Part shown: positions 7,401 to 51,711 of the stretch, piece by piece
Position numbering within the stretch: position 1 is the first letter of the stretch
Layout: every line of letters starts with the position of its first letter
Assembly (NCBI GenBank): GCA_030431635.1
Contig: JAUIIL010000002.1
Location: forward strand, 1 to 64,000
From: Bacteriovoracia bacterium
GTDB taxonomy: Bacteria > Bdellovibrionota > Bacteriovoracia > Bacteriovoracales > Bacteriovoracaceae
Reading direction: 5' to 3'
DNA: 64,000 nucleotides
The notes under the pieces: generated by a model
The model's database searches: none
What the model saw: the letters and a program-made list of their open reading frames with translations, nothing else
What the model was told of the DNA's origin: nothing
Program-made: the position numbers and the translations under genes

Positions 7401-9404
7401 ATGAAACACTTGTTAGAACTTTCAAATAATCCCTACAATGCGGTTGATTTCGATAAAATTCGAGCAGAAAACTTTATCCCTGCTTTGAAGGAAGCCATCC
7501 AACTCGCAGATGAAGAAATTTTAAAATATAAAAAAATAACAGAAATTGATTTTGATAGCTGTATTTTGAAATTAGAAGAAGTGAGTGAGAAGGTTGATTA
7601 CATTGCTACCATTTTTTATGCTTTATACGCAGCAAATGCGACTAAAGAAATCCAAGAAATTTCAGAAGAAGTCTCTTCACTTCTAACTAAGTTTTCAAAT
7701 AATATAACACTCGATTCTGAGGTCTTTGAAAAAGTGAAAAAATGTTATGAAGTGAAAGGGGAATTAAGCCTAACGTCAGAGCAAGAAAAGGTTTTAGAAT
7801 CGTATTATTTAGACTTCACGCGTAATGGAGCCTTATTAAATGAAGAAGATAAGACAATTTTGAGAGATATCGATGAGAAACTTTCAACCTTGAATCTTAA
7901 GTTTTCTAAAAATGTTCTCGATGCCACCAATGCATTCGAGCTTCATATTCAAGATGAAAAGCAATTGCAAGGTTTACCAGAAAGTTCAGTAGAAGCAGCG
8001 AAAGAACTGGCCAATTCAAAAAACAAAGAAGGATGGATTTTTACTCTTCAATACCCAAGCTATATTCCATTCATTACGTATTGTGATGATCCCGAACTAA
8101 GAGAAAAGATGGCCAGAGCAGCTGGAGAGAAAGCTTTTGGAGGAGAGTTTGATAATCAAAAAAATATTATTGAAATAGTTTCATTGAAAGAAAAACGAGC
8201 TCATTTGCTAGGTTTTGAAAATCATGCCGATTTTGTCTTACAAAAAAGAATGGCCCAATCTCCTCATAAAGTTTTTTCATTTTTAGACGATCTTTTAGAA
8301 AAGGCCCTTCCTGCCGCTCAAAAAGAGAAGAAACGTATTGAGGATATGGCCGGAAAGCCACTCGATAGATGGGATGTGACTTACTATAGTGAAAAACTTA
8401 AAAAGAAAGAACTCGATCTTGATGAAGAAATGCTTCGTCCTTATTTTAAATTAGAAAATGTTGTTAAAGGTGTTTTTGATGTTGCTCATAAACTATACGG
8501 AATTAAGTTTCAACAAATAGATGTTCCAGTTTATCATCCAGAAGTTAAAGCCTACAAAGTTTTAGATGAAAAGGATGAGTATGTAGGACTTTTTTATACT
8601 GATTTTTTTCCAAGAGAAACGAAAAGAGGTGGGGCTTGGATGACGGAGCTTTTTGGCCAAGGGCATTTTCAAGGAGAGGTGAGAAGACCGCATATTTCAA
8701 TTGTTTGCAATTTTACTAAACCAACCGCTTCAAAGCCATCTTTACTTACCTTTAATGAGGTCACCACACTTTTCCATGAATTTGGCCACGCGTTACATGG
8801 TCTACTTACTCAATGCCAATATAGAAAGCTCTCTGGAACTTCTGTTTTTTGGGATTTTGTTGAACTGCCATCGCAAATAATGGAGAACTGGGTACAGGAA
8901 AAAGATTGTTTAGATTTATTTGCTGTTCATTATGAAACAGGTGAGAAAATGCCTGTTGAATTAATTGAAAAGATAAAAAAGAGTGGAAAGTTTCTTCAAG
9001 GTTTAGCAACAATAAGACAGCTTAGTTTTGGTTTAGTTGATATGGCTTGGCATACATCAAAAGCAAATGAAATTAATGATGTTGTAAAATTTGAACGCGA
9101 ACACATGTCAAAGGCCGATGTTTTTTCACCTATTGAAGGATCATGTTTTAGTACCGCTTTTTCTCATATTTTTGCAGGAGGGTATTCGGCGGGATACTAC
9201 TCCTACAAATGGGCCGAGGTTTTGGATGCCGATGCTTTTGATTTTTTTAAACAAAAAGGAATTTTCAATAAAGAGGTTGCGAATAAATTTAAAACATTTA
9301 TTCTCGAAAAAGGTGGAACTGAGCATCCGATGGAGCTTTATAAAAAATTCAGAGGAAGCGAGCCTAAAGTTGAAGCCTTGTTAAAGCGAGCAGGTCTAAG
9401 TTAA
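7401..9404 (+). CDS. M3 family zinc oligopeptidase (oligopeptidase A / Dcp-like)
   Basis: The protein has 667 residues, the usual length for M3A peptidases, and no signal peptide, so it is probably cytoplasmic. The catalytic signature TLFHEFGHALH gives zinc ligands His459 and His463 with base Glu460, and Glu488 in FVELPSQ is placed as the third ligand (25 residues after the second His). The N-terminal helical region and the late FSHIFAGGYSAGYYSYKWA stretch are typical of this family. Such enzymes degrade short peptides. In a peptide-feeding bacterium it would act on peptides imported by systems such as the ABC importer at 35901-41269; that link is inference. Confidence 0.92.
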   Translation: MKHLLELSNNPYNAVDFDKIRAENFIPALKEAIQLADEEILKYKKITEIDFDSCILKLEEVSEKVDYIATIFYALYAANATKEIQEISEEVSSLLTKFSNNITLDSEVFEKVKKCYEVKGELSLTSEQEKVLESYYLDFTRNGALLNEEDKTILRDIDEKLSTLNLKFSKNVLDATNAFELHIQDEKQLQGLPESSVEAAKELANSKNKEGWIFTLQYPSYIPFITYCDDPELREKMARAAGEKAFGGEFDNQKNIIEIVSLKEKRAHLLGFENHADFVLQKRMAQSPHKVFSFLDDLLEKALPAAQKEKKRIEDMAGKPLDRWDVTYYSEKLKKKELDLDEEMLRPYFKLENVVKGVFDVAHKLYGIKFQQIDVPVYHPEVKAYKVLDEKDEYVGLFYTDFFPRETKRGGAWMTELFGQGHFQGEVRRPHISIVCNFTKPTASKPSLLTFNEVTTLFHEFGHALHGLLTQCQYRKLSGTSVFWDFVELPSQIMENWVQEKDCLDLFAVHYETGEKMPVELIEKIKKSGKFLQGLATIRQLSFGLVDMAWHTSKANEINDVVKFEREHMSKADVFSPIEGSCFSTAFSHIFAGGYSAGYYSYKWAEVLDADAFDFFKQKGIFNKEVANKFKTFILEKGGTEHPMELYKKFRGSEPKVEALLKRAGLS

Positions 9405-9413
9405 AGTTAGTCA

Positions 9414-11018
9414 TTACTCTTTTGCCATGGGTAAGGTTAGTTTAGTAATGGCGCCTTGCCCTCTTCCTCCGCTTAATATCTCAATTTTACCACCGTTGTT
9501 TTTCATGTAATTGGCACAGTTATGTAAGCCAAAACCAGAACCTCTCTCTTTGGTTGAGTAGCCGTACTTAAATAAATTATTTAAAACTTCTTCCTCGATA
9601 CCAATTCCATTATCTTCAATAAATAATTCTACTGAATCTTCATTTCTCTTCGTATAAATAACAATATAGTAATAATCCTTTTGAAATAGAGCATAATCTT
9701 CATCCATGGCCTCAACAGCATTAACAATAGCATTTGAAATAGTTTGAGAAAGTCCTATCTTTTCAACAAAAACCTCAGCGTCATTGATGTCAAAAATAAG
9801 GTTTATGTTTCTTTTTTGTATTCGATGCTCATGCATAACAACACAATCTTGTATGATACCCTCAAGAGAGAACTTTGATTTGATCTGAGTTTTAAGATTC
9901 GCGTATTGTTGCTGGGTCGTGATGATATCACCTATATGCTTACATTCTTTAGCAATATAATTATTGGCCTCAAAAAAAATAGATTGGTGACTTTGAAAAT
10001 AGGAGCTAAGCTCTTTCATTAATGCTCCTAGTTGTTTTAGTTTGTTCTCATCCATTTCTTGCCGAAACTCAGGACTTTCAAGTTTGCTGGCCATTTGACT
10101 AAGAAGTTGTGTGTTTCTATTTAATATTTCACTTTCATTCTTTGTCGTAATTTTACCCATAATAGAAGTTAAAACATTTCCAATATTGTGCAAAACTTGA
10201 ATGGCGTTTTCGGCAACACCTTGAGAATAAGCTTGTTTAACCAGTTCATCTTGTAGTTCTTGTTTTTCAGTTTCAGACTTTATCCTTTGTGTAATGTTAA
10301 ATCCGTAAACATGTATATAGTTTAATTCTGGAATGCCTTTAAAACTCATAACATAGTATTCATTTCCTAATAGAATTGTCTCCGAAAGTGAACCTCCATT
10401 CTTTGAAAGGTTTAATATTTCTTGAGAGTCTGTTTTTTTGAAAAGATCTAAAAAACTTTTCTCAGGATGGGATTCTGAGAGTTTTTTCTCTGCGGAAGGA
10501 TTCATTTGTATAATTTTGCCTTGATGATTTAGTCTTAAAATTGGAGCAGGGTTAAAGCGAGCGAATGAAGCAAAATCATTTTCTATTTTTTTGATCTCGC
10601 TAAGATCTTTAAATGAAAGAATATAGTTTTCATTTTTATTGTTAGTAATCGTAGATTGACTGAGATAAACAGGGATAAATTGCCCATCGATGTTTTTAAG
10701 ATAAAGTTCATAATCAACACCATTTTCGAGTTCATGCTCAGGTTTAGATTCGCAATCTTCCCAAATGAAGGATTCAACAGGTGGAAGGTCGTCACCATAT
10801 TCAATATTCATCATTTGATAGAATGTTTTATTAGCTTTAACAAGCTCCCGATTACTATTAAGAATAAGAATTCCATTTTGGAGAGAATCGATAATATTTT
10901 CTAAAAACTCGTTACTTTGAAAAAGCTCTCTTGTCGTTTTTTCAATCTCTCCTTCAAGGAGTAGACGAGCTTCTTTTTCTCTATCAAGTTTCTTTTTTAG
11001 AATTTCTTCGTTAAGCAT
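9414..11018 (-). CDS. PAS-domain sensor histidine kinase, H-NOX associated
   Basis: The protein has 534 residues and is soluble (no membrane segments). Order: short coiled coil (1-40), PAS (about 40-140), second PAS-like domain (about 150-245), a dimerisation helix with atypical H-box VLHNIGNVL (His277), and HATPase_c ending with FIEDNGIGI, GYSTKERGSGFGLHNCA. The HNIGN type of H-box differs from classical HE-x-x-TP kinases. It lies 8 bases downstream of the H-NOX gene in the same operon, making it the likely direct partner whose autophosphorylation the H-NOX protein modulates. Last gene of the cluster, convergent with the M3 peptidase. Confidence 0.85.
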   Translation of the reverse strand: MLNEEILKKKLDREKEARLLLEGEIEKTTRELFQSNEFLENIIDSLQNGILILNSNRELVKANKTFYQMMNIEYGDDLPPVESFIWEDCESKPEHELENGVDYELYLKNIDGQFIPVYLSQSTITNNKNENYILSFKDLSEIKKIENDFASFARFNPAPILRLNHQGKIIQMNPSAEKKLSESHPEKSFLDLFKKTDSQEILNLSKNGGSLSETILLGNEYYVMSFKGIPELNYIHVYGFNITQRIKSETEKQELQDELVKQAYSQGVAENAIQVLHNIGNVLTSIMGKITTKNESEILNRNTQLLSQMASKLESPEFRQEMDENKLKQLGALMKELSSYFQSHQSIFFEANNYIAKECKHIGDIITTQQQYANLKTQIKSKFSLEGIIQDCVVMHEHRIQKRNINLIFDINDAEVFVEKIGLSQTISNAIVNAVEAMDEDYALFQKDYYYIVIYTKRNEDSVELFIEDNGIGIEEEVLNNLFKYGYSTKERGSGFGLHNCANYMKNNGGKIEILSGGRGQGAITKLTLPMAKE

Positions 11019-11026
11019 ATAAATCC

Positions 11027-11554
11027 TTATTTAAAGGTTATGTGAAATTTGTAATTTTCTAGATCTTGTTCCCATTTAAGAGATACATCTTTACCAAAAT
11101 AATCCGCTAATCCATAAATAAGACCTTCCACTAAGTAGGGAAGATTTCTTTTAGAAATATAGGTGAGTTCTAAATTTTCATCATCAATTCTTTTGGCAAT
11201 AAACTTAGGAGTTTCGGCTCCTTTAAATATTTTCCTTACTTCAACATGGATAATTCCATCTAATTCCTCAAGAAGTGAAATAGGATTATCATATTTTTCA
11301 ACCAAGTGATGAGAGTGTTTGGCCAGTTTTGAAAAGGCAAATCGTCCAAAAGAAACAAGAGTTTTCTCGATAGGTAATTGCTTTAATTGAAGAGCTGTGT
11401 TTAGTAGAGTCGCAAAAATATTATCATCATAACTTCTGGGTGAAATAAAAACTGTTTCATCAACACAGCTATCTTCTAATATTTCTTCCCATGCTTCATC
11501 ATTAAAGTTTTTAATTATAAAACTTTCAAAAATATTAAACATGATCCCTTTCAT
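11027..11554 (-). CDS. H-NOX heme nitric oxide sensor protein
   Basis: The protein has 175 residues from ATG 11554, chosen because GGAGGGGAAT directly precedes it and the N-terminus MKGIMFNIFESFI then matches the family (MKG-(I/V)-x-F/N). Heme ligand His103 is in DGIIHVEV, and the propionate-binding Y-x-S-x-R motif is Tyr132-Ser134-Arg136 (YISKR). The position matching the O2-binding distal tyrosine of the Thermoanaerobacter (Caldanaerobacter) protein aligns to Leu141, suggesting selective NO binding. Soluble stand-alone sensor overlapping the upstream REC-kinase by 20 bases and followed by a PAS kinase. Confidence 0.9.
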   Translation of the reverse strand: MKGIMFNIFESFIIKNFNDEAWEEILEDSCVDETVFISPRSYDDNIFATLLNTALQLKQLPIEKTLVSFGRFAFSKLAKHSHHLVEKYDNPISLLEELDGIIHVEVRKIFKGAETPKFIAKRIDDENLELTYISKRNLPYLVEGLIYGLADYFGKDVSLKWEQDLENYKFHITFK

Positions 11555-12722
11555 ATTCCCCTCCATTGTATAATGGGAAAATAAGATTAAATAAACTTCC
11601 TTCTCCTGGTGTTGACTCCACTTCAATTCGTCCATTTTGTAGTGTTGTAAGTTCTTTTGTGATGGCAAGCCCAAGACCTAAGCCTGGTTTTGTATGCGAT
11701 AGATTTTCAACACGATGAAATTTATCAAATATAAACTCTAACTGTTCTTGAGGAATTCCAATTCCTGTATCTTGAACTGAGAAATAAACTTCATCTTCCT
11801 TTTGTGTACATGAAACCTGGACAAAACCAGAGTCCGTGAATTTAATAGCATTATTGGTTAAATTGATAAGACATTGAAGAACTCTGTTGTAATCAAGCTC
11901 TGTATAGATTTCTTCTTCACAGGGAATAAAGTTTATCTCAATATTATTATCATTAATTATTTTACTAGAAATAATTTTGTATAAATCCTCCAGGATATCT
12001 TTTGTTCGTATAGGAGCAAGATTTAGTTTTACTTTTTTCTTTGAAATAGAAGAAATATCAAAGAGATCATCAATGAGAACCTTCATTAGGTGAGCATTTT
12101 TTTTCATAATTGTAATGAACTCTTTCGCCTCATCTTGAACTTCCTCTTCTTCCAGTAAATCAGTAAAGCCAATAATTGATGAAAGAGGTGTTTTTAATTC
12201 GTGAGAAAGACTAGATAGAAAATCGTCTTTTATTTGGTTGTTGCGATACTTGACACAGAGATTAAGAGCGACTTGCTCGATCTCCTCAGAAGCAAAAGGT
12301 TTTTTTAAATAAAGAAGTTTATCGGGCTGTCCAATTTTTTTTACAATATCATTGAGATTTGTATCTGAATATGCAGTGACTATGACTATTTCAACTTTAG
12401 GATCAAGCTCTCTAATCCTCTTTGCCGTTTCCGCTCCATCTATTCCTGGGGGCATCCTCATGTCTACAAAAACAACTTGAATGGGGTTGTTATTTAAATT
12501 CTCTTCAACAATTTTAACTCCATCAATTCCTTGGTTAGCAGTAAAAATATCAAAAACAATATCATCAAAAGAGCTTTCTTGATTTTCAACAGCAATATCT
12601 TTTTCCTCAAAAAAGCTAGCAGCTAGATTATCAATTTCTGAATTGTTAGTTTTTTCAAAGATTTTTTTGTAAGCATTAATAACCTCATTTTCATCATCGA
12701 TAAAAAGAATTTTATTGTTCAT
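11535..12722 (-). CDS. Receiver-histidine kinase hybrid (REC-HisKA-HATPase)
   Basis: The protein has 395 residues from ATG 12722, which has AGGAAAT immediately upstream. The N-terminal receiver carries acidic pocket DDE (9-11) and phosphoacceptor Asp87 in VFVDMRMP, Thr in IVTAYSD and Lys in LKKPF. An insertion of about 35 residues between the first helix and the second strand makes it longer than usual. Then HisKA with SLSHELKTP (His174) and HATPase_c with NLTNNAIKF, QDTGIGIP and GLGLGLAI. Cytoplasmic. A receiver preceding a kinase implies it is driven by another kinase in the cluster, i.e. a phosphorelay. It overlaps its neighbours by 11 and 20 bases. Confidence 0.88.
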   Translation of the reverse strand: MNNKILFIDDENEVINAYKKIFEKTNNSEIDNLAASFFEEKDIAVENQESSFDDIVFDIFTANQGIDGVKIVEENLNNNPIQVVFVDMRMPPGIDGAETAKRIRELDPKVEIVIVTAYSDTNLNDIVKKIGQPDKLLYLKKPFASEEIEQVALNLCVKYRNNQIKDDFLSSLSHELKTPLSSIIGFTDLLEEEEVQDEAKEFITIMKKNAHLMKVLIDDLFDISSISKKKVKLNLAPIRTKDILEDLYKIISSKIINDNNIEINFIPCEEEIYTELDYNRVLQCLINLTNNAIKFTDSGFVQVSCTQKEDEVYFSVQDTGIGIPQEQLEFIFDKFHRVENLSHTKPGLGLGLAITKELTTLQNGRIEVESTPGEGSLFNLIFPLYNGGEYERDHV

Positions 12723-13410
12723 ATATTTCCTCACAGGTTGTTGCTACTGATCTTAGTTTTTGAGAGAGGTTTTCTGTTAAACCGATAAAGCTGGCCTTTG
12801 TCTTAAATTCTCTTCCTTCTCGCTCACAAGAGTATGTTCTTATGAGAACATTATCATCGAGTTTTAAAACTTGTTTCATAATCTTGGAAGAGAGCATAAT
12901 TTTGGCATTTAAGGGAAGCTCAATTGGAGATAAGAACTGAATATCAAATTCAGAAAAAGAAGTTATGCTAACTTTAATATTTCCGCTTGGCTTTAATAAA
13001 AACCCATCGGATAAAGTTTGAACAGATGAAAAATTTCCATTGCTGGTACCTGTTAATAGTTGATGAATTTTTTCTTGCAATAATTGTTTATCAATCGGTT
13101 TTATGAGGTAATCGTCGGCTCCATTTTTTAGACATTCTTTAATATCATCTTTAAGATTCTTTGCTGTTAACATGCAAATTTTAAATGAACGACAAGGGAT
13201 TTTTTTGATGTAGAGGAGAAAACTCTTTCCATCCATAATAGGCATCATAATATCAAGTAAAACAACATCGATGTCACTATTAAGGACAAGGGCTTGAATA
13301 GCTTGCTCTCCATTACAGGACTCAAGGACAATATGCTTATCTCTTATAAGCATTGTCTTAAGCATTAGTCTTATGTTGTCGTTATCTTCAACGATAAGAA
13401 TCTTGCCCAT
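12712..13410 (-). CDS. Response regulator with PilZ-like C-terminal domain
   Basis: The protein has 232 residues. The receiver spans about 1-120 (KILIVEDND, Asp53 in LLDIMMPIMDG, Lys in LIKPID). The C-terminal 100 residues, with alternating beta strands and LPLNAKIMLSS...FKTKASFIGL, look like a PilZ beta barrel but lack the canonical RxxxR and D/NxSxxG c-di-GMP-binding motifs. So it may be a non-binding PilZ-fold output. Start supported by GGAGGGGAAT before ATG 13410. It overlaps the REC-kinase by 11 bases. In the NO cluster it could carry the response to motility or surface machinery; that is inference. Confidence 0.7.
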   Translation of the reverse strand: MGKILIVEDNDNIRLMLKTMLIRDKHIVLESCNGEQAIQALVLNSDIDVVLLDIMMPIMDGKSFLLYIKKIPCRSFKICMLTAKNLKDDIKECLKNGADDYLIKPIDKQLLQEKIHQLLTGTSNGNFSSVQTLSDGFLLKPSGNIKVSITSFSEFDIQFLSPIELPLNAKIMLSSKIMKQVLKLDDNVLIRTYSCEREGREFKTKASFIGLTENLSQKLRSVATTCEEIYEQ

Positions 13411-13465
13411 ATTCCCCTCCTGAGAGTATTAAAGCATTTTCTTGTTAAGAGAATATGGATAAGAG

Positions 13466-13479
13466 TGGAGATCTCTCCA
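13466..13479. promoter_or_regulatory. Inverted repeat between two signalling genes
   Basis: TGGAGA-TC-TCTCCA forms a perfect 6-bp inverted repeat in the 94-base gap separating the OmpR-like gene from the REC-PilZ-like gene, the only real gap of the cluster. It may be a regulator operator or an RNA stem. No T-run follows in the minus direction, so simple termination is unlikely. Confidence 0.3.
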
Positions 13480-13504
13480 TAATGTAGGAGTAAGTTATTG
13501 AAAG

Positions 13505-14185
13505 TTAAGGGGTTTTTACTAAATACCCCTCTCCGTAAACAGTGAGAATTTCGACTTTGCTAGGCTTGAGTTTACTTCGTAAATGGCTAATATGACTATC
13601 GATGGTTCTATCTGTCATTTCTGAATCGTGATAAGCAATGTGAAAAATAATGGCTTCACGTGAAAAAATACGATCGGGATTTTGAAGAAAAAGCTCTAGC
13701 ATTCTAAATTCTGTTGGAGTTAAAGTTATTAAGTTGTTCTTCAATTTTAATGAATGATTTTTTAAGTTTAACTCTAGATCTTGAAACTGTATTTTCTCAC
13801 TAACTTGTTCATTCACAAATTGTTTGAGAATACTTTTCACAATAACTTTTATTTCACTCAAAGAAGTTGGTTTGGAAATGTAGTTAATGGCACCAAGACT
13901 ATAGCCTGTAAGTTTTGAAGAATTATCTTGTTTAGCAGAATGAAAAATAATAGGAGTTTGCTCACTTATTTTTTCATTTTTGGCCCTGGTGCAAACTTCA
14001 TATCCGCTCATATCAGGCATCATGATGTCCAGAATAACGAGAGAGGGTTTTTCTTTATGCCAAACTTTCAAGGCTTCTTCGCCATTAGAGGCCAGTAAAA
14101 TATGATATTCTTCCTTGAGTCCTTCTCCAAGAAACTTTCTTATATCTTCATTATCATCAACAATTAAAATCTTATGCTTGGTCAT
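13505..14185 (-). CDS. OmpR/PhoB-family response regulator
   Basis: The protein has 226 residues. The receiver (KILIVDDNED, Asp53 in VILDIMMPDMSG, Lys in ISKPTS) is followed by a winged helix DNA-binding domain with LTPTEFRMLELFLQNP, DRTIDSHISHLRSKL and VYGEGYLVKTP, the standard PhoB signature. It is the only DNA-binding output of the cluster, so it probably mediates its transcriptional response. It overlaps the upstream nitronate monooxygenase gene by 14 bases. No kinase is fused; candidates are the two kinases downstream. Confidence 0.92.
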   Translation of the reverse strand: MTKHKILIVDDNEDIRKFLGEGLKEEYHILLASNGEEALKVWHKEKPSLVILDIMMPDMSGYEVCTRAKNEKISEQTPIIFHSAKQDNSSKLTGYSLGAINYISKPTSLSEIKVIVKSILKQFVNEQVSEKIQFQDLELNLKNHSLKLKNNLITLTPTEFRMLELFLQNPDRIFSREAIIFHIAYHDSEMTDRTIDSHISHLRSKLKPSKVEILTVYGEGYLVKTP

Positions 14186-15155
14186 TCTTCAACACATCAA
14201 AAGCAGTTTGATACTCACTTATAAGTCTATCGACGACTTCTTTGATAGTCTCTTCTTTGTGACTGAATTCAATAGAGGAGCCCGCGCACCAAACTGATTT
14301 ATAGGTGGCGCCGAACGCTGCTTTTTCAAGCAGTTTCATTCCTTTGTAAAAAGTCAGCATCTTGGCATATTTTTTAATTTTTTTATTCTTATTTAAAAAA
14401 GACTCAATCGGGTTTTGTTCAACACCAATATTTTGAACATAAGGTGTGTTAATGACAGTACAGGGTGTGCCAGAGAGCTTTGTCGTAACGACAATATCTT
14501 GAGCCCCATATTGAATACAGGCTTCTTTATATTCTGGAGTAACGCCACATTCTTTTGTTGGGATAAATGGAGATCCGATAGAAAAACCATCTGCTCCTAA
14601 AGCCAGCATAGAAAGGAGTCCACTGCCAGTATTGACTCCTCCAGCAGAAATGACTGGAACAGAAAATTCTCTCTTTAACATAGGAACGAGGAGAGACGCT
14701 GGAATTTTACCGAGGTGGCCACCTGCTCCACTATTAACAGCAACTAGCGCATCAGCACCAAAATCAACAACTTTTTGAGCGTATTTTTTATCAGTCACAT
14801 CACAGAAGACTTTGATATTTTTTTGATGAGAGCGTTCAATGACTTCAAGAGGATTTCCGAGTGAAGTGATAAAGTAATCAACCTGATAATCAAGGCAAGC
14901 TTCTAACTGTTGTTTATAAAGAGGATTTGACTGGTTAACAATAAGGTTAATGCCAATAGGGCCAGAAGAGTTCTTCTTTAAAAAATCTAGAGCTTCTTTA
15001 AGTTCATCAATCGTTCTAAAGTTGTGGGCAGGAATACAGCCGGTTATCCCTGCTTGAGAAGCAGCAATAAGCATCTCTTTGTTCGTGACCAAGAACATTG
15101 GGGCCATAATAATAGGAAATTCTATTCCTAGAAGTTTTTGTAGTTTTGTTTTCAT
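14172..15155 (-). CDS. Nitronate monooxygenase-like flavoprotein
   Basis: The protein has 327 residues from ATG 15155; an in-frame GTG at 15179 is a weaker alternative. The FMN-dependent TIM barrel of the nitronate monooxygenase / 2-nitropropane dioxygenase family is visible as LGIEFPIIMAPMF near the N-terminus, GAGGHLG (phosphate-binding), PVISAGGVNTG and ADGFSIGSPFI. These enzymes oxidise alkyl nitronates; the similar enoyl-reductase FabK fold cannot be excluded without alignment. First gene of the H-NOX cluster, overlapping the OmpR-like regulator by 14 bases, which suggests a nitro- or nitrosative-stress theme. Confidence 0.82.
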   Translation of the reverse strand: MKTKLQKLLGIEFPIIMAPMFLVTNKEMLIAASQAGITGCIPAHNFRTIDELKEALDFLKKNSSGPIGINLIVNQSNPLYKQQLEACLDYQVDYFITSLGNPLEVIERSHQKNIKVFCDVTDKKYAQKVVDFGADALVAVNSGAGGHLGKIPASLLVPMLKREFSVPVISAGGVNTGSGLLSMLALGADGFSIGSPFIPTKECGVTPEYKEACIQYGAQDIVVTTKLSGTPCTVINTPYVQNIGVEQNPIESFLNKNKKIKKYAKMLTFYKGMKLLEKAAFGATYKSVWCAGSSIEFSHKEETIKEVVDRLISEYQTAFDVLKNDQA

Positions 15156-15261: not shown

Positions 15262-16434
15262 ATGAAAATAATAGGGATGTTAATCAGTTTATCATTCTTT
15301 TGCTTTGCGCAAGAACCTGAATACCAATGGATCAGCATTGGAACTGATGCAGTAGAGAGTCTTAATCAGAAAAGTTTTCCTGAGGCAAAATTATTTGCTG
15401 GAAATCAAATGGCATCAGTTATGAGGGTGAAGAAAAACCAAATTAAAGCTATCTCGCATTTGATGCATGAGAAGTATGAGCGTTGTGCTGGCTTTATGGC
15501 CCATAAGACAGAAGAGGAAGCTCTGGAAGCAGCCTCTTTTAACTCGGAAAAAAATAGAGCTGGTAGTGCTATTTTTGCTAATTATTCTATCGATATGGCT
15601 TCAACAGTTGAGCCAATGATTCAAGAGGTGAAAGAAACCAATATTAGAAACACGATTATTAAACTCTCTAATTTTGAAAATAGGTATTATCTCAATCAAA
15701 CCGGAGTTGAGTCTCAAAATTGGGTAAAAGATCTTTGGAGTAAATACCTAGCAGCAAGAAGTGATGCAAAAGTTGAGTTTTTTCAACATAAAAATTGGCC
15801 ACAGCCTTCTGTTGTCGCAACTATTCAAGGGGAGCAAATTCCTAATGAAGTAATTGTTATTGGAGGACATGCCGATTCTATTAATAGAAGAAGTTCAAGA
15901 GCTCCAGGAGCAGATGATAATGCTTCTGGAATTGCTACCATTTCAGAAGTCATAAGAGTATTGGCCGAAACTGGCTATCGACCATCACGAACTATTAAGT
16001 TTATAGGGTATGCAGCAGAAGAAGTGGGCCTTCTTGGTTCGCAAGAAATAGCTAAAGACTTTAAATTAAATAATAAAGAAGTCATTGGAGTTATGCAGCT
16101 TGATATGACAAACCATAAAGGGACCCATGATAAAGACATTGTCATGATGACAGACTTTACTAATAAGCCTCAAAATCAATTTTTAGGACAAGTTATTGAT
16201 ACATACCTAAAAATACCATGGGGATATTCTCAATGTGGCTATGGGTGTTCAGATCATGCTTCTTGGTACAGACAAGGGTATCCAGCCTCTATGCCTTTTG
16301 AATCAAAAATGGAAGATATTAACCATAAAATTCACACGAATCAAGATACAATCGATGCTTCAGGTGGGACTGCTGAGCATGCAACGAAATTCGCGAAAAT
16401 GGCAACGGCTTACATGGTTGAGCTTGCTAAGTAA
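15262..16434 (+). CDS. Secreted M28 aminopeptidase, Vibrio/Aeromonas leucyl aminopeptidase type
   Basis: The protein has 390 residues with signal peptide MKIIGMLISLSFFCFA. After a propeptide-like segment comes the M28 domain, with cocatalytic zinc ligands and base at His203 (GGHADSI), Asp218 (PGADDN), Glu253/Glu254 (YAAEEVGLLGSQ), Asp281 (QLDMTN) and His358 (KIHT). Cys325 and Cys329 (CGYGCSDHASW) match the disulfide pair of the Vibrio proteolyticus enzyme, and overall similarity to that enzyme is high. It would release N-terminal hydrophobic residues from peptides outside the cytoplasm, useful to a predator or protein-eater. AGGAGAG precedes ATG 15262. Confidence 0.93.
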   Translation: MKIIGMLISLSFFCFAQEPEYQWISIGTDAVESLNQKSFPEAKLFAGNQMASVMRVKKNQIKAISHLMHEKYERCAGFMAHKTEEEALEAASFNSEKNRAGSAIFANYSIDMASTVEPMIQEVKETNIRNTIIKLSNFENRYYLNQTGVESQNWVKDLWSKYLAARSDAKVEFFQHKNWPQPSVVATIQGEQIPNEVIVIGGHADSINRRSSRAPGADDNASGIATISEVIRVLAETGYRPSRTIKFIGYAAEEVGLLGSQEIAKDFKLNNKEVIGVMQLDMTNHKGTHDKDIVMMTDFTNKPQNQFLGQVIDTYLKIPWGYSQCGYGCSDHASWYRQGYPASMPFESKMEDINHKIHTNQDTIDASGGTAEHATKFAKMATAYMVELAK

Positions 16435-35783: not shown

Positions 35784-35900
35784 ATGTTTAGTGTAAGAGT
35801 TTATTAGGTCTGTTGACTGGAGTTGGTAATACAATTCTAGTATGTATAGTCTTAGGATATGTTTAGGATGCTCGCCAATGGGGAGATTGGGAGAGTGTCA

Positions 35901-37667
35901 ATGAAAGCTTCATTTCTTTTTGTTCAGGTATTTTTTTGCCTGTGCGTTCTTTTTTCGTGTTCAAAAAAATTAGATTTATCTCAAAAAGTTCTTTATCAAA
36001 GAGTTAAAGCTGAGATTAAAGGCTTCGATCCTATTCACGCGAGTGACTCATACTCTGCTAGAGAAGTTTCAAAAGTCTATGAAGGTTTATTCGAGTATCA
36101 CTATTTGAAAAGACCCTACACATTAGCGCCTAACCTCGCCGATGGTATGCCTCATATTGCCGATGATGGTCTTACTTATACTTTTAAAATAAGGAGAGGC
36201 GTTTATTTTCACGATAATCCGTGTTTTGAAAACGGACAGGGAAGAGAGCTTACGGCAGAGGACTTTGTTTATTCGATAATGAGGCTTGCTGATCCTAAAA
36301 ATTCTTCCCCAGGTTGGTGGGTTTTAGATGAAAAAATTAAAGGACTTAATGAATGGAGAGATTTACAAAAAACGGCTGAAATGAGTGACTATAATCTTTC
36401 TATTGAAGGTTTGAAAGCTCTGGATAAATATACATTACAATTTATTCTGAAGCGTCCTTTTCCTCAATTTCTTTACTCATTGGCCATGCAGTTTACTTCA
36501 GTTGTTCCAAAAGAAGCTGTTAAGAAATACAAGAGCGAGTTTATTAATAATCCGGTTGGTACTGGAGCTTATATGACAGAAACATTTAATGCTCTATCTA
36601 ATAAGATTGTTTATGTTGCCAACCCTAAATTTCGAGAAAAATTTTACCCAACAGAAGGTAGTGAAGGAGATGAAGAGAGAGGACTGCTAAAAGCAGCAGG
36701 GAAGAGAGTTCCTTTTATTAAAAAAATTGTTACTTATATAATGCCTGAGCATTCACCTGCTTGGTTGTCTTTTTTAAAGGGGGAAGTTGATGAACTTGAA
36801 ATACCAAAAGATAACTTTGATCAAGCGATTGCACCTGATAAAAGCGTAACAAATAATCTTTCACAAAAAGGAGTTGAGGTTGAAGTTGAAAATGCACTCG
36901 ATGTAACATACTTCGCTTTTAATCATACCAATCCACTTCTTCAAAATCTTAATTTAAGAAGAGCGATGTCATTGGCAATTAATAGGGATAAGTTAAACGA
37001 ACTTTTTTATCATGGACTTGGAATTAAGGCCCAGACACCGATTCCTCCAGGGATTAAAGGATATGATGAAAGTTATAAAAACAAATACACCGCCTATAAT
37101 ATTCAAGAAGCAAAATCTTTATTAGAGCAAGCGGGGTATAAAGATGGGAAAGGATTGCCTGAGATCGCTTACGATACAATTTCAACTACTGTTTATAGAC
37201 AAATAGCGGAGTTTTTTGTCAAAGAGATGGCCCAAATTGGAGTAAAGGTAAAACCTAATTTTAATACTTGGCCTCAATTACTAAAAAAAATAAAAACAAG
37301 ACAAACCCAAATTCATGCTATCTCTTGGGTAGCTGATTATCCTGATGCTGAAAACTTTTTACAATTGCTCTATGGGCCTAATAGTGCACCGGGAGCAAAT
37401 GGTTCGAACTTTAACGATTCTATTTTTAACCAAAAGTTCTCACATGTTTCTCTCATGCAAGATTCATCAGAGAGAACAAAGCTTTATGTGCAATTGGCCC
37501 AAGAAGTAGCTGAAAAAGTTCCTTGGATTCTGGGAGTTCATAGAACTAATTTTCGATTAAAACATGGTTGGATAAAGAACTATAAAGGGACAGAGTTTAA
37601 ACATGGAATTGAGCAATATTGGGATATCGATCTGGATAAGAAAAAAGAACTTATTGCAAAATTTTAA
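35901..37667 (+). CDS. Peptide ABC importer substrate-binding lipoprotein (family 5)
   Basis: The protein has 588 residues from ATG 35901, preceded by GGGAGAG; an ATG at 35859 would add an unrelated leader. The lipoprotein signal ends VLFSC. Family 5 (Opp/Dpp) signatures are FDPIHASDSYS, LADGMPHIADDGLTYTFKIRRGVYFHD, LTAEDFVYSIMRLADP, NPVGTGAYM and LRRAMSLAINRDKL. It captures oligopeptides outside the inner membrane for the permease genes immediately downstream (9-base gap). A first gene of a four-gene importer operon. Confidence 0.93.
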   Translation: MKASFLFVQVFFCLCVLFSCSKKLDLSQKVLYQRVKAEIKGFDPIHASDSYSAREVSKVYEGLFEYHYLKRPYTLAPNLADGMPHIADDGLTYTFKIRRGVYFHDNPCFENGQGRELTAEDFVYSIMRLADPKNSSPGWWVLDEKIKGLNEWRDLQKTAEMSDYNLSIEGLKALDKYTLQFILKRPFPQFLYSLAMQFTSVVPKEAVKKYKSEFINNPVGTGAYMTETFNALSNKIVYVANPKFREKFYPTEGSEGDEERGLLKAAGKRVPFIKKIVTYIMPEHSPAWLSFLKGEVDELEIPKDNFDQAIAPDKSVTNNLSQKGVEVEVENALDVTYFAFNHTNPLLQNLNLRRAMSLAINRDKLNELFYHGLGIKAQTPIPPGIKGYDESYKNKYTAYNIQEAKSLLEQAGYKDGKGLPEIAYDTISTTVYRQIAEFFVKEMAQIGVKVKPNFNTWPQLLKKIKTRQTQIHAISWVADYPDAENFLQLLYGPNSAPGANGSNFNDSIFNQKFSHVSLMQDSSERTKLYVQLAQEVAEKVPWILGVHRTNFRLKHGWIKNYKGTEFKHGIEQYWDIDLDKKKELIAKF

Positions 37668-37676
37668 GGTGAAAAT

Positions 37677-38618
37677 ATGAATAATCTTATTTATTTTATC
37701 AGAAGATTTCTTTATTTAATCCCGGTTTTACTAGGGGTTTGTCTGATTATCTTTTTTCTTTTTAATATTGTCGTTGGAGACCCAACACCATTATTACTAG
37801 GAAAAAATGCAACAATTGAACAAATGGAAACATTAAGAGAGGAACTTGGACTTAATAGAGCTCTTTATCTTCAATACTTTGATATTGTGAAGTCAGCTTT
37901 CACTCTAGATTTTGGGCGCTCTTGGGCAACCAAGCAGCAAATATCTCAAATGATTATAAATGGTGTTGTTCCAACTCTATCTATGACGTTGCCTGCTTTT
38001 TTTCTTTCGACTTTTATATCGCTAATTGTTGCTATTGTGGTTGCTTTTTATAGAGGAGGAAAAGTGGATTTTGTTGTAAGAGCAGCTTGCATTGCTGGTA
38101 TGAGTATTCCTTCTCTTTCTTATATTTTATTTTTTCAATACTACCTTGCTTATCAAGAAGGTTTATTTCCTATTCAAGGATATGATTATGGCTTTCCCCA
38201 CTTTATTCCTTTTATTATACTTCCTGCTCTCATTTGGATTATTCTTAGCATTGGGCCAGATGTAAGGTTTTTTAGAACTGTAATTCTGGATGAACTTTAT
38301 CAGGATTATGTAAGAACGGCTAAGGCCAAGGGGCTATCTCAAGTAAATATTTTATTTAAGCATGTCCTGAGAAACTCACTTATCCCTGTTATTACATATG
38401 TCGTTATACAGCTCCCATACCTGATTTTAGGGGCCATTTTACTTGAGAATTTCTTTAGTATACCAGGAATTGGGAGCATGATTCTAAGTGCACTTAATTC
38501 AAATGATTTTCCAGTACTTAAATCGTTGGCTGTTATTACATCTTTGGCCCTCATTATTTTTTCCCTTTTAACAGATTTTCTCTACACCTTGGTCGATCCA
38601 AGAGTGAAATTAAGCTAA
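37677..38618 (+). CDS. Peptide ABC importer permease (OppB/DppB-like)
   Basis: The protein has 313 residues with six predicted membrane segments: first at about 9-30, then a periplasmic loop, then five more from about 100. The EAA loop contacting the ATPase is DYVRTAKAKGLSQVNILFKH. The N-terminus IRRFLYLIPVLLGVCLIIFFL and GDPTPLLLGKNAT are typical of OppB/DppB. Ribosome site AAGGTGA. It pairs with the next permease. Confidence 0.93.
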   Translation: MNNLIYFIRRFLYLIPVLLGVCLIIFFLFNIVVGDPTPLLLGKNATIEQMETLREELGLNRALYLQYFDIVKSAFTLDFGRSWATKQQISQMIINGVVPTLSMTLPAFFLSTFISLIVAIVVAFYRGGKVDFVVRAACIAGMSIPSLSYILFFQYYLAYQEGLFPIQGYDYGFPHFIPFIILPALIWIILSIGPDVRFFRTVILDELYQDYVRTAKAKGLSQVNILFKHVLRNSLIPVITYVVIQLPYLILGAILLENFFSIPGIGSMILSALNSNDFPVLKSLAVITSLALIIFSLLTDFLYTLVDPRVKLS

Positions 38619-38627
38619 GGATAAGTT

Positions 38628-39551
38628 ATGATAGAAGCTATAATGAAAAAAGAATCAGCCCTAAATAAAATGAATGAAAAAACCTATTTAATAGAGAGAA
38701 GTAAGTCTCTTTACCAAGATGCATTTGAAAGACTATTAAAGGATAAAGCCGCCGTTGCAGCTGCCGTAGTTGTTTTTTTCTATTCCGTTATTGCTATCTT
38801 AAGTTCAATGGGAATTATTGCTGCTGATTGGAATACTGAAGTTGGTCCTTCATATTCACCTCCAAGCGCAAGTTTTTGGCTTGGAACAGATATTTTTGGA
38901 AGAGATGTTTTCACTAAAATTATTCATGGAACTCAAGTGGCAATGTCAGTTGGGCTTTTTACTTCCCTCATTGCTATTCCTGTCGGGGTTATCCTGGGAG
39001 CTATTTCTGGTTATTATGGTGGGTTAGTGGATGAATTGATCGTTTGGTTTTATACAACAATTAGTTCAATCCCTTCAATTATGCTCATTATATCAATCTC
39101 ATTAATTATGGGAAAAGGGCTTGTTGCCGTTTATGTGGCCTTGGGAACAACAAGTTGGGTAAGTCTATGCCGGCTTATTCGAGGTGAAGTCATGAAACAT
39201 AAAAATAGAGATTATGTTCAAGCAGCTCAAGCTCTTGGTGGAAGTAAACTACGACAGCTTTTTAAGCACATTCTTCCTAATGTCACTCATATTGTTATTA
39301 TTAACGCCTCTTTACAATTTCAAATTGCGATTAAATCGGAAGTAATTCTTTCTTTTTTGGGTATCGGAGTTCAATCACAACCTAGTTGGGGAACAATGAT
39401 TGATGATGCAAAATTGGAATTAGTCGGAAGAGGTGTTTGGTGGCAACTTGTTGGTGCTACGATTGCTATGTTTATTATTGTCCTGGCTTTTAATATACTG
39501 GGAGATGCGCTTAGAGATGCACTTGATCCAAAACTAAAAGGAAAAAATTAA
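38628..39551 (+). CDS. Peptide ABC importer permease (OppC/DppC-like)
   Basis: The protein has 307 residues: a cytoplasmic N-terminus, the first membrane span at about 45-65, then SFWLGTDIFGRDVFTKIIHGTQ typical of OppC, and four to five further spans. EAA loop NRDYVQAAQALGGSKLRQLFKHILPN. Likely ATG 38628 with AGGA upstream; internal ATGs at 38643 and 38670 are possible. Its stop overlaps the ATG of the ATPase gene by one base. Confidence 0.93.
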   Translation: MIEAIMKKESALNKMNEKTYLIERSKSLYQDAFERLLKDKAAVAAAVVVFFYSVIAILSSMGIIAADWNTEVGPSYSPPSASFWLGTDIFGRDVFTKIIHGTQVAMSVGLFTSLIAIPVGVILGAISGYYGGLVDELIVWFYTTISSIPSIMLIISISLIMGKGLVAVYVALGTTSWVSLCRLIRGEVMKHKNRDYVQAAQALGGSKLRQLFKHILPNVTHIVIINASLQFQIAIKSEVILSFLGIGVQSQPSWGTMIDDAKLELVGRGVWWQLVGATIAMFIIVLAFNILGDALRDALDPKLKGKN

Positions 39552-41269
39552 TGAGCTTGTTGTTAGATGTAAAAAATTTAAATATTGAATTTCATACTCA
39601 GGAAAATATCGTAAAAGCTGTTAATAATGTTTCTTTCTCTATTAAAGAAGGGCAAACGATTGGACTTGTGGGAGAGTCAGGCTCTGGTAAAAGTGTCACT
39701 TCTCTGGCTTGTATGCGTCTTATCCCAACCCCTCCTGGAAAAATTACTTCTGGAGAAATTCTTTTTCAGGGAGAGGATTTACTTAAAAAATCTCAAGAAG
39801 AAATGAGAAAAATTAGAGGTAATGATATCTCAATGATTTTTCAGGAACCAATGACTTCTCTTAATCCTGTCTTTAAGGTTGGGGAACAAATTTCAGAAGC
39901 TTTAATGCTTCATAAAGCGATGACCAAAAAACAAGCATGGGCCCGAACCATTGAGCTTTTAGATCAAGTGGGAATTCCTAATCCCTCACAAAAAGCACAT
40001 GCTTATCCTCATGAAATGTCAGGAGGACAAAAGCAAAGAGTCATGATTGCCATGGCCATCTCTTGTGAACCTAAATTATTAATTGCAGATGAACCAACGA
40101 CTGCACTAGATGTAACGATTCAAAAACAAGTTTTGGAACTTATGTTCAAGCTTCAAGAAGAATACAAAATGGGAATGCTCTTTATTACTCACGACCTAGG
40201 AGTTATTGCTGATATCGCTGATGAAGTAGTTGTTATGTATAGAAGTGAGATAATGGAGAGAAATTTAACTCAAGAAATTTTTAAAAAACCAACTCATCCT
40301 TATACTAAAGGGCTATTGGCCTGTAGACCTTCACTTGATAAAAACCCCAAGAGGCTCCTAACTGTTAGTGATTTTATGACAGAGCAAGGAGCAGAAAAAG
40401 AAATTAACAAAGAGTTATTGCATCCTTATGAGAAATCTTTTTCTTTTGATGAAGAAAAGAACCCCGTTTTATTAGAGGTGAAAGATTTGAAAACATATTT
40501 TCCAATTAAGGGAGGATTATTTGGTCAAACAATAGCCGACGTTAAAGCGGTAGATGGAGTGAGTTTTCAATTAAGAAAAGGGAAAACTCTTGGACTAGTA
40601 GGCGAATCAGGATGTGGAAAAACAACTTTAGGTAGATCAATTTTGCGATTAGTGGAGCCAACTCAAGGAAGTGTTATTTATGATGGAATTGATATTACTT
40701 CTCTTGATGCTCCGGCAATGAGAGAAATGAGATCGAGAATGCAAATTATTTTTCAAGATCCTTACTCTTCTTTAAACCCAAGGATGACAATTGCGGAAAC
40801 TCTACTAGAACCAATGGATATCCATGGAATTGGTGAAAATAAAAAACAAAAACTAGATAAGGCCAAGTGGTTGATGAACAAAGTGGGGTTAAACGCGAAT
40901 CAACTTAATCGATATCCTCATGAATTTTCTGGTGGGCAAAGACAAAGAATTAGTATCGCGAGAGCACTTACTTTAAACCCAGAGTTTATTATTTGTGATG
41001 AATCTGTTTCTGCCTTAGATGTTTCTGTTCAGGCACAGGTTCTAAACTTACTTCTTGATTTACAAGAAGAATTTGGATTGACTTATATTTTTATTTCACA
41101 TGATTTGAGTGTAGTGAATTTCATTTCTGATGAAGTGGGAGTAATGAATGCTGGAAAAATTGTTGAGATGAACAATGCCGATGAAGTCTATCATCGCCCA
41201 CAACAAGAGTATACTCGTTCGTTATTAGAAGCCATTCCAAAAGGAATTCCTAACGAGATTCTTTTTTAG
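39551..41269 (+). CDS. Fused two-domain peptide ABC importer ATPase (OppD-OppF type)
   Basis: The protein has 572 residues carrying both nucleotide-binding domains that are usually separate proteins. Domain 1: Walker A GESGSGKS (about 39-46), signature MSGGQKQR, Walker B LLIADEPTTALD, and an Opp-type C-terminal tail. Domain 2: Walker A GESGCGKT (about 350-357), signature FSGGQRQR, Walker B FIICDESVSALDVS, where Ser replaces the usual Pro after DE. Both appear competent. The 3' end overlaps the convergent symporter gene by 20 bases. Confidence 0.94.
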   Translation: MSLLLDVKNLNIEFHTQENIVKAVNNVSFSIKEGQTIGLVGESGSGKSVTSLACMRLIPTPPGKITSGEILFQGEDLLKKSQEEMRKIRGNDISMIFQEPMTSLNPVFKVGEQISEALMLHKAMTKKQAWARTIELLDQVGIPNPSQKAHAYPHEMSGGQKQRVMIAMAISCEPKLLIADEPTTALDVTIQKQVLELMFKLQEEYKMGMLFITHDLGVIADIADEVVVMYRSEIMERNLTQEIFKKPTHPYTKGLLACRPSLDKNPKRLLTVSDFMTEQGAEKEINKELLHPYEKSFSFDEEKNPVLLEVKDLKTYFPIKGGLFGQTIADVKAVDGVSFQLRKGKTLGLVGESGCGKTTLGRSILRLVEPTQGSVIYDGIDITSLDAPAMREMRSRMQIIFQDPYSSLNPRMTIAETLLEPMDIHGIGENKKQKLDKAKWLMNKVGLNANQLNRYPHEFSGGQRQRISIARALTLNPEFIICDESVSALDVSVQAQVLNLLLDLQEEFGLTYIFISHDLSVVNFISDEVGVMNAGKIVEMNNADEVYHRPQQEYTRSLLEAIPKGIPNEILF

Positions 41270-42815: not shown

Positions 42816-43910
42816 ATGACTGACAAAAATTACAGATTAAAAAATCTTTCTTTTTCGAAGGAAGATTTAGATATTATTACTCTAGATGATCTAGAGAGAG
42901 AACAGGTTTGTCCAGGGCATATAATCTTTCTTTCTTCAAAATTCAATAAACCTGTACTTTTAATGAGAGCAGGGGATTTTGTTGATCCTGATTTTATTCA
43001 AAGATATAAGAAGAAAGGGCAAAAATCTTTTTATATTTATAAAGTTTCAAATGATGAAAATATCCAAACATTCAATCAACTTTGGATTACTTTAAAAACA
43101 GCAAAACTAGAAACAGAAAGGCTAATAGCGAGAAAAAAACTTCTAACTCATTTTTGTGAGCTGTTTTGGTTTGAGCAAAACAAAGCAAGAGTTTTAGATT
43201 TTTATCTTTCCACTTTTAATACTTTTAATCGTTTTGATGATGAGATAATTGTTCAATTAAGAGAAACAGACACTCTTTTATGTGAAAGAGGTATTCAAGC
43301 AGCATCCTTCTCCTCAATCGTTGCTTTGATTCTTGGATACACAGACTTTCAATTATTGAGCGATATTTTTCATGTAACATTTCTTCTTGATCTAGGACTT
43401 GTTGAAAAAAATTACAGCTATTTTATTGCACAAGCTTGTGAGCAAGAAAGACAAAAACCTGGAGAAGGTTTGCATTTTTTAAAAAAAATGAACGTCTCTA
43501 AGTCTGAGTACTCTTTGTTTTACTATCATCCTGTGGAAAGTATGAAGATAGCTAAAAAACGATGTATAGGTGTTTTTTACCACCCAGATGTCATTAAAAT
43601 TATTAGTTATCAGCACGAGCTTTTTAATGGAAAAGGATTCCCAAGTAAAATTAATTACTGGGGGCTTTCTGAATACGAAACAATCCCAATCCTCGTGGAT
43701 GCTTTTGTTCCTTTCGAAGAAACATTTTATACCGAATCCTCAGAGGCTGGAATTTTTAAAAAATATGTAGAGAGTTTAAACGAAAACACTAAAGCGGAAC
43801 TCCTCCCACTTAGAAAAAGCTTAAATCGATTAACTCTCGAGTTAAATAAGATTCTAATTGAAGAGAATGAAAATGAAAGTGATGATTCGCAAGTGAAGCT
43901 TGGAGCATGA
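42816..43910 (+). CDS. Degenerate HD-GYP-like protein
   Basis: The protein has 364 residues. The N-terminal 80 residues (ITLDDLEREQVCPGHIIFLS) resemble the domain that precedes HD-GYP in some proteins. The C-terminal half keeps the shape of HD-GYP (YYHPVESMKIAKK, ISYQHELFNGKGFP, LVDAFVPFEE), but the HD doublet is replaced (FLLDLGLV) and GYP reads GFP. Catalysis is therefore unlikely, while c-di-GMP or protein binding remains possible. ATG preceded by GAGGAGAAG. Its TGA overlaps the ATG of the giant coiled-coil gene, so the two proteins probably work together. Confidence 0.6.
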   Translation: MTDKNYRLKNLSFSKEDLDIITLDDLEREQVCPGHIIFLSSKFNKPVLLMRAGDFVDPDFIQRYKKKGQKSFYIYKVSNDENIQTFNQLWITLKTAKLETERLIARKKLLTHFCELFWFEQNKARVLDFYLSTFNTFNRFDDEIIVQLRETDTLLCERGIQAASFSSIVALILGYTDFQLLSDIFHVTFLLDLGLVEKNYSYFIAQACEQERQKPGEGLHFLKKMNVSKSEYSLFYYHPVESMKIAKKRCIGVFYHPDVIKIISYQHELFNGKGFPSKINYWGLSEYETIPILVDAFVPFEETFYTESSEAGIFKKYVESLNENTKAELLPLRKSLNRLTLELNKILIEENENESDDSQVKLGA

Positions 43911-50088: not shown

Positions 50089-51711
50089 TTACAGTTTTTT
50101 TAGATATTCAAGAAGATCGATTTTTTCCTTTTCTGTTAACTTATCTCCAACGTTATGGCCCTGGTTTGAGCGACCATATTCCTGAGTGTTATAAATCCTT
50201 CTAAAGGAGAGGTGTTTTCTCTTGAGAGAATTTTGTTTATGTTTCTTCTTTAACTTTAAATAATTTTTAGAAGATATTTCTTTATAGATAAGACCGACAT
50301 CATTTTGATTGTAAGAGAACGGATCGATTTCAATTTGCCAGATAAGGGGTCTTTTAGCTGCGTCTAAAACTCCCGCGAGAGTTGGGACTGAACCATTATG
50401 AAAGTAAGGAGCAGAGGCCCAAATACCTTTTAAAGGAGGAGGTGAATAACCAGGGGCTTCAGGGATTCTTGCAATAAAATTTTCTCCACTAGCGTAATAT
50501 CCTTTGTTTTTATAAGAGCTGAACACCAAGTCCGCTTGCTGATAGAGAGGACGCAAGGATTGTAGGACATTTGAATATTCTGGGTCTGTTCCCATATCAA
50601 CTTGTTCTTTATTAGGAAAATCTTCTTCTTTTAATTCACCATCTTCACTATAGATACCGTGGCATTTAAAGCAGCGTCCATTGGAATGAAAAACTTGATA
50701 TCCTCTTTGGGCCCTTTCTTCATTAATAGGAAAAGGGTAAGTAGGGCTTTTTATGGAACGTGCGTAATCGAGGTGTGTTTTTGTTCTATCCATCCTTTGT
50801 TGAGCCTGGTTCTTATTTTCTTCATGATGATCAAGCAAATTTAGTGAAAAAGTAGTCGGGGATAAGTGAGTTACATCACTTAACCAAAAAGATCTTTTTT
50901 TATACTTTAGGTTCCACCAAGGTGAAGGTGTAATTTGAGGAAAAATAGTGTTACTCAAAAGCTTCTTCTCAAGTTCTGTCTTCTTCGTTACATCAGAAAT
51001 CTCAAGACCATTCGGAGGGTCAGAGAGCTTGGCTATTGTATGCCACACAACCCATGGGCCAGAATTATCACCCCGAAGAATCGTGTTTTTTGAAGCGGGT
51101 TTGATTATGTGTTCAAAATAATCCATAAAGCCAGAAAGATGTTCGTCTTGTTGTTTGTTGAGAAGGATTTTTCTAAGTGTGTTATGAAAAAACTTTTTAA
51201 GATTTTTAGAATCTTTCTGGTACATGGGTAATAACTTGTCTGTTTGTATAATTTGGTTATGTGGATCAAAGTTTGTAGAGGGGAGTCCTGCAATCACTTT
51301 TCCAGCAACGACTCCCGCATGACATGAAAAACAGTTCGTGTTAACAATCCTCTCGCCATTTCTTTCAAACGAGCTAAGACCTAAGGGTAGCTTTTTAAAC
51401 TTTCCGACGTCTCGTCTAAAGTCAGATAAATAAAGTTTTTCATTTTTTGATGAAGGAGAAGGAATATTCCCTAGTTCCCATAATTTTTTTTGTGAAAAAC
51501 GGGAAAAATTAATTTTGAAAATTTTCTCAGGAATACCATAAAAGTATTCATCTCCTCTTAAAATCGACTCAAGGCCTCTTCTCTCTTCTTTTCCCTCGGC
51601 ATTAAAACCAATGAATTCAAGCTTGTTGAGATCATACTTATCTTCCTTTTCTTTGGAGAAAAGACCAGGAGAAGCCCATGATAAAAAAATCCAAAAGTAG
51701 AGACTGCGCAT
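50089..51711 (-). CDS. Periplasmic diheme cytochrome c oxidoreductase
   Basis: The protein has 540 residues with signal peptide MRSLYFWIFLSWASPGLFS. Two heme c sites are seen: NCFSCHAG (about residue 122) and RCFKCHG (about 340). The C-terminal LKGIWASAPYFHNGSVPTLAGVLD resembles diheme cytochrome peroxidases of the MauG/CcpA superfamily and also RoxA/RoxB rubber oxygenases, which are of similar large size. The reaction is therefore open: peroxidase or an organic-substrate oxidase. It heads a two-gene operon with the exported kinase-like protein. Confidence 0.8.
   Translation of the reverse strand: MRSLYFWIFLSWASPGLFSKEKEDKYDLNKLEFIGFNAEGKEERRGLESILRGDEYFYGIPEKIFKINFSRFSQKKLWELGNIPSPSSKNEKLYLSDFRRDVGKFKKLPLGLSSFERNGERIVNTNCFSCHAGVVAGKVIAGLPSTNFDPHNQIIQTDKLLPMYQKDSKNLKKFFHNTLRKILLNKQQDEHLSGFMDYFEHIIKPASKNTILRGDNSGPWVVWHTIAKLSDPPNGLEISDVTKKTELEKKLLSNTIFPQITPSPWWNLKYKKRSFWLSDVTHLSPTTFSLNLLDHHEENKNQAQQRMDRTKTHLDYARSIKSPTYPFPINEERAQRGYQVFHSNGRCFKCHGIYSEDGELKEEDFPNKEQVDMGTDPEYSNVLQSLRPLYQQADLVFSSYKNKGYYASGENFIARIPEAPGYSPPPLKGIWASAPYFHNGSVPTLAGVLDAAKRPLIWQIEIDPFSYNQNDVGLIYKEISSKNYLKLKKKHKQNSLKRKHLSFRRIYNTQEYGRSNQGHNVGDKLTEKEKIDLLEYLKKL

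Follow-up and report, generated by a model that had tools for sequence, protein, structure and literature searches.

A minus-strand H-NOX gene cluster in a Bacteriovoracia bacterium, a candidate two-tier nitric oxide-responsive signalling system, and the N-terminal helix that may connect sensor and kinase

Six open, tightly packed genes, one of them encoding an H-NOX protein that is a candidate sensor of nitric oxide (NO), lie on the minus strand at 9414-15155 of the DNA analyzed here ("the window": 64,000 nucleotides, positions 1 to 64,000 of contig JAUIIL010000002.1 in the Bacteriovoracia bacterium assembly GCA_030431635.1, family Bacteriovoracaceae). In the direction of transcription they specify a flavoprotein of the nitronate monooxygenase (NMO)/FabK-like family (14172..15155; NMO domain, PF03060, E 2.9e-40); an OmpR/PhoB-type response regulator made up of a receiver (REC) and a winged helix (13505..14185; REC and Trans_reg_C in Pfam); a response regulator with REC, a six-stranded PilZ-like barrel and a C-terminal helix, of which Pfam recognizes REC (REC-PilZ-like; 12712..13410); a 395-residue kinase with N-terminal receiver, HisKA and HATPase (REC-kinase; 11535..12722); the 175-residue H-NOX (HNOB; 11027..11554); and a 534-residue PAS-PAS histidine kinase (PAS and HATPase; PAS-kinase; 9414..11018). 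The start and stop of the NMO and OmpR genes overlap by 14 base pairs (bp), the REC-PilZ-like and REC-kinase genes by 11 bp, and the REC-kinase and H-NOX genes by 20 bp; 8 bp separate H-NOX from the PAS-kinase gene, and the single true intergenic gap, of 94 bp, precedes the REC-PilZ-like gene. Plus-strand peptidase genes flank the block on either side (M3, 7401-9404; M28, 15262-16434) and so delimit it as a discrete minus-strand unit, with all six genes where the initial annotation had placed them.

That H-NOX here belongs to a multi-component cluster containing two kinases, as also claimed at the outset, is upheld by the Pfam domains and by the recurrence of its core in three other genera, to which we return. 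The receiver of the REC-kinase is complete: its Asp9, Asp10, Asp87, Thr116 and Lys141 are invariant in four orthologs, as is His174 of its canonical H-box; orthologs about 42% identical lie upstream of H-NOX in the three other genera, and orthologs of the PAS-kinase directly downstream of it. The PAS-kinase retains intact ATP-binding motifs and a conserved His277 in the sequence LHNIGNVLT. (A further kinase with a like type of H-box, LHAMGNTLT, is encoded at 4240-5625 of L039, divergently to the cluster, making three kinases at that H-NOX locus; L-numbers designate collected loci.)

Which kinase does H-NOX address? The genes directly 3' of H-NOX in the collected loci encode proteins with two kinds of N-terminus. 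Downstream of KG-type H-NOX (starting MKG) the protein opens with a charged helix, consensus LKRxxEREKxARxxAExLLExKSRELY, and what stands behind the helix differs: histidine kinases, a GGDEF-EAL protein (L056), a SpoIIE-type phosphatase (L057). Downstream of YG-type H-NOX (starting MYG) are kinases with an HNOBA-like N-terminus (PF07701; L026, for example). Automatic sorting yields 30 KG/helix and 12 YG/HNOBA-like pairs and one KG/HNOBA-like pair (Fisher p about 1e-9), the last being a sorting error: L119 begins MYGLVNKG. A profile of 17 helices, from which the window and its orthologs were excluded, matches residues 3-40 of the window's PAS-kinase (E 1.3e-7), while the same profile has no match in the REC-kinase. 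Codons 1-41 of the PAS-kinase (10896..11018, minus strand; LKKKLDREKEARLLLEGEIEKTTRELF) have the sequence pattern expected of a helix or coiled coil of ~40 residues. Since the PAS-kinase carries the KG-type partner helix and the REC-kinase does not, the PAS-kinase is likely to be the direct client of H-NOX, and the REC-kinase a second tier. No description of the partner helix was found in the literature (open-licence papers only).

The helix is nearly confined to this one genomic position. The profile used for the wider searches includes the window's helix, and its seeds are counted among the matches, so that the point of the counts is the near lack of matches elsewhere: in 124 genomes of the family there are nine, one per genome and all nine directly downstream of H-NOX, and the family genomes without H-NOX, more than 100 in number, have no match; the 369 genomes of the phylum have 18 matches, of which 17 lie directly downstream of H-NOX. 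The exception is a hybrid kinase (L126:6948-8684, genome G187) near the gene of a divergent OmpR-type regulator; G187 also has a regular H-NOX partner, and the hybrid kinase is possibly a paralogue that works in trans. Two apparent fusions of H-NOX to the helix were discarded as start-site artefacts: translation of L053 reveals a stop separating the genes, and the kinase of L058 is read in a different frame from the H-NOX match.

Might H-NOX instead act on the REC-kinase, or on both kinases, with the PAS-kinase serving as an independent input? The 20-bp overlap of the REC-kinase and H-NOX genes, and their linkage in four genera, speak for such an arrangement, as does the finding of kinases on both sides of H-NOX in some relatives (L108, L110 and L112). 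However, the conserved same-strand neighbour of H-NOX is the downstream one (51 of 53 loci); the upstream neighbour varies, lying on the same strand in 28 and in many cases being unrelated. With the partner helix located in the downstream PAS-kinase rather than in the REC-kinase, we regard this alternative as rather unlikely.

The sensor itself is single-copy in this 3.3-Mb genome, as judged by a genome search. Its start is placed at 11554 (MKGIMFN...); a longer reading frame from 11674 was set aside as a mechanical extension. The match to HNOB (PF07700; E 1.2e-34, 120 bits against a cut-off of 25.5) covers positions 1-161 of 163, so that the domain is full-length, and the protein aligns with Shewanella oneidensis H-NOX across nearly its entire length. 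The latter is also the best structural match of its AlphaFold2 (AF2) model (predicted local distance difference test score, pLDDT, 90.7; template modelling, TM, score 0.93 to 4u99). In alignment with the O2-binding Tt/Cs H-NOX (reference sequence identical to PDB 1u4h) the heme-binding motif is intact, with proximal His103 and the YxSxR residues Y132, S134 and R136, whereas the distal pocket is apolar and lacks all three residues that hydrogen-bond O2: Tyr140 is replaced by Leu141, Trp9 by Phe9 and Asn74 by Ala73. No homologue in the H-NOX alignment has Tyr in the Leu141 column. The heme motif and Leu141 were read in just this way in the initial annotation, and its forecast of an NO-selective pocket gains support from the alignment and the S. 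oneidensis-like fold: the pocket is predicted to be of the NO-selective, non-O2-binding type, in which stable O2 binding would be unlikely. (An H-NOX split across two reading frames at L046, G033:C347:13480-14014, is likely to be a frameshift or a decaying gene; G033 is of the same genus as G034.)

A pocket of this kind may exclude only a stable O2 complex, and the signal sensed might accordingly be O2, carbon monoxide (CO) or redox state instead of NO. The organism appears to be aerobic (of its genome's two COX1 homologues, one is an aa3 and the other a cbb3 oxidase), and Caulobacter H-NOX, which also lacks the distal Tyr, signals by Cys oxidation and not by NO (PMC12329717). In Shewanella and Vibrio H-NOX redox sensing resides in three zinc-ligating Cys (PMC7108781); this site (Cys near 139, 164 and 172), the mark of the redox-sensing H-NOX of groups 2 and 3, is absent from the window's H-NOX, whose only Cys is Cys30, and the Cys-oxidation route is thus closed. 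Relatives such as L044 have candidate zinc-site Cys in the alignment. O2 sensing is disfavoured by the replacement of Trp9, Asn74 and Tyr140. These several non-NO signals, taken together, are quite improbable, and sensing of NO is the reading with which we continue.

What would such a system control? One output is evidently of the transcription-factor type, the OmpR-type regulator, which has orthologs in all three related loci. The other is less easily read. The AF2 model of the C-terminal domain of the REC-PilZ-like regulator (pLDDT 87) is a six-stranded barrel and helix of PilZ topology. Homologues match PilZ (PF07238) only below cut-off (E 0.0025-0.013), and the window's own protein does not reach the PilZ profile; a Foldseek search for the PilZ fold returned a list swamped by receiver domains, and a barrel-only profile search found no PilZ structure. 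Neither of the cyclic di-GMP (c-di-GMP) motifs, RxxxR and [D/N]xSxxG, occurs in ten aligned homologues. The PilZ-like output initially proposed thus stands as to modelled topology and not as to c-di-GMP: the window's barrel, with neither motif, does not support a c-di-GMP output. Regulators of this kind occur widely (in 146 of the 369 phylum genomes), so that their presence alone is not H-NOX-specific; further families of the phylum also have them close to H-NOX (L107, L114, L115, L120 and L121), which suggests a repeated association.

Genome searches place H-NOX in 21 of 129 genomes of the order (the query for the contig search being an alignment of four H-NOX; a single H-NOX query gave no match). 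In three other genera, four with that of the window, it is clustered with the OmpR-type regulator, the REC-PilZ-like regulator, the REC-kinase and the PAS-kinase, each roughly 30-44% identical to its counterpart in the window. The arrangement is not rigid: L035 has two copies of the REC-PilZ-like gene, followed by the OmpR gene. Nevertheless, with five of the six genes recurring together in three other genera, the arrangement is more than chance. The sixth gene is another matter. No NMO homologue lies beside the orthologous clusters L035 and L039, the two with sequence on that side (the L044 contig stops within the OmpR gene and is uninformative here), so that the core consists of five genes and the NMO is a bystander in the operon of this genome: probably co-transcribed with the cluster and not a component of the circuit, which is how it had been annotated and how, on gene neighbourhood, it can no longer be counted. 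That it nevertheless functions in the circuit, for example by releasing nitrite or removing nitro compounds tied to NO signalling, as its same-strand, 14-bp overlap with the OmpR gene might hint, is highly improbable given its lack of a place beside L035 and L039 and the commonness of NMO/FabK-like flavoproteins, FabK being its best NCBIfam match, far below cut-off.

The 94-bp gap within the operon contains a 14-bp near-palindrome, TGGAGA-GA-TCTCCA (13466..13479), which is not conserved at the orthologous loci; its designation as a possible operator is speculative.

Taken as a whole, the locus is probably an HnoX-HnoK-like two-component system that has two tiers and responds to NO. Its components and the H-NOX/PAS-kinase pairing are read from sequence; the direction of regulation is argued by precedent: NO inhibits kinase autophosphorylation in S. 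oneidensis, V. cholerae and other Vibrio (PMC12329717, PMC7108781). The scheme would run as follows: 1) The docking site of H-NOX would be the PAS-kinase's N-terminal helix or its vicinity. 2) NO-bound H-NOX would, as in Shewanella and Vibrio, inhibit autophosphorylation of the PAS-kinase. 3) The PAS-kinase would phosphorylate the receiver of the REC-kinase, thereby tuning it, and/or act on both regulators. 4) How far the OmpR-type regulator (and so transcription) and the REC-PilZ-like regulator are phosphorylated would depend on the two kinases together. 5) The REC-PilZ-like regulator would be a protein-protein or protein-level effector and not a reader of c-di-GMP. As to where NO might come from, neither COX1 homologue is an NO reductase (a qNOR/NorB identity is ruled out), no FIST/NosP that might be a second NO sensor was found in this genome, and there is one single-domain globin; an external origin of any NO encountered, such as prey or denitrifiers nearby, is thus more likely.

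Several considerations weigh against this scheme. The helix profile scores well against the orthologous PAS-kinase of L035 and weakly against those of L039 and L044. Pfam does not detect HisKA in the PAS-kinase, whose H-box, HNIGN, is non-canonical. Caulobacter H-NOX has an NO-type pocket and binds NO, yet the activity of its kinase is unchanged by NO (PMC12329717): a missing distal Tyr is no guarantee of NO signalling. The order of phosphotransfer is suggested solely by domain content and gene order, the gene family is known only as sequence, and the want of an NO-reductase-like COX1 homologue leaves no evident endogenous source of NO.

One can also think of the partner helix more generally, and here we are more tentative, giving the idea somewhat less than an even chance: KG-type H-NOX may signal through a single transferable N-terminal helix coupled to varied outputs (histidine kinase, GGDEF-EAL, SpoIIE phosphatase) and YG-type H-NOX through HNOBA; in Bacteriovoracaceae the helix would feed a cascade of two kinase tiers whose PilZ-fold output has ceased to read c-di-GMP. 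How stand-alone H-NOX proteins contact and control their partner enzymes is a weakly understood step in bacterial NO signalling. A helix found next to H-NOX in 17 of 18 cases in a phylum, and in front of varied output domains, allows a direct and inexpensive test of a docking site and sequence-based finding of H-NOX clients. With this cluster, relatives of bacterial predators are added to the organisms with H-NOX circuits; those parts of the open-licence papers that were available yielded no link between H-NOX and Bdellovibrio.

Elsewhere in the window, a histidine kinase bearing DUF3404 (PF11884, with HisKA and HATPase), followed by an overlapping 222-residue reading frame, is encoded at 59219-61461 on the plus strand; we take DUF3404 to be the sensor domain of the VxrA/WigK cell-wall-stress kinases. 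What looks like an operon for peptide uptake (35859-41269, plus strand) encodes a family 5 extracellular solute-binding protein and a double ABC ATPase whose C-terminal region is of the oligopeptide type; together with the M3 and M28 peptidases nearby, it fits a proteolytic way of life. The product of 50089-51711 (minus strand) matches RoxA-like cytochrome c (PF21419), and a 1712-residue reading frame at 43907-49045 on the plus strand has no Pfam match at E 0.001.

How does the cluster compare with H-NOX systems already described? Closest are the HnoX-HnoK-HnoB/HnoC/HnoD network of S. oneidensis and HnoX-HnoK-HnoB of V. cholerae, which share with it an H-NOX of KG type that stands alone, has the same fold and lacks the distal Tyr, a partner kinase (in the window, a predicted one), and more than one response regulator as output, among them a transcription factor: one H-NOX/kinase pair in S. 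oneidensis already feeds several regulators, with a transcription factor included (PMC8738867, PMC8846402). The window's operon differs in adding a second, REC-bearing kinase, in having OmpR-type and REC-PilZ-like outputs in place of EAL, HnoC and HnoD, in an H-NOX without the zinc/Cys site, and in the HNIGN H-box of its PAS-kinase. Vibrio HqsK/HahK and the Caulobacter H-NOX/HnoK pair resemble it in that the H-NOX gene adjoins or overlaps a kinase gene and receivers stand downstream of the kinase; there, however, the kinase itself carries the receiver at its C-terminus, whereas here receivers are separate proteins and the N-terminus of the second kinase. For a REC-kinase downstream of another kinase, Leptospira LvrA-LvrB would presumably be a comparable two-tier case, as far as domain order goes (named from NCBIfam hits), although it has no H-NOX. 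The architecture had been annotated as unlike known circuits; that holds for a second, REC-bearing kinase and a REC-PilZ-like regulator in one operon, and not for multi-regulator output, which S. oneidensis already has. The cluster is, then, ordinary NO-sensor logic in a new arrangement, and the partner helix is the result of wider use.

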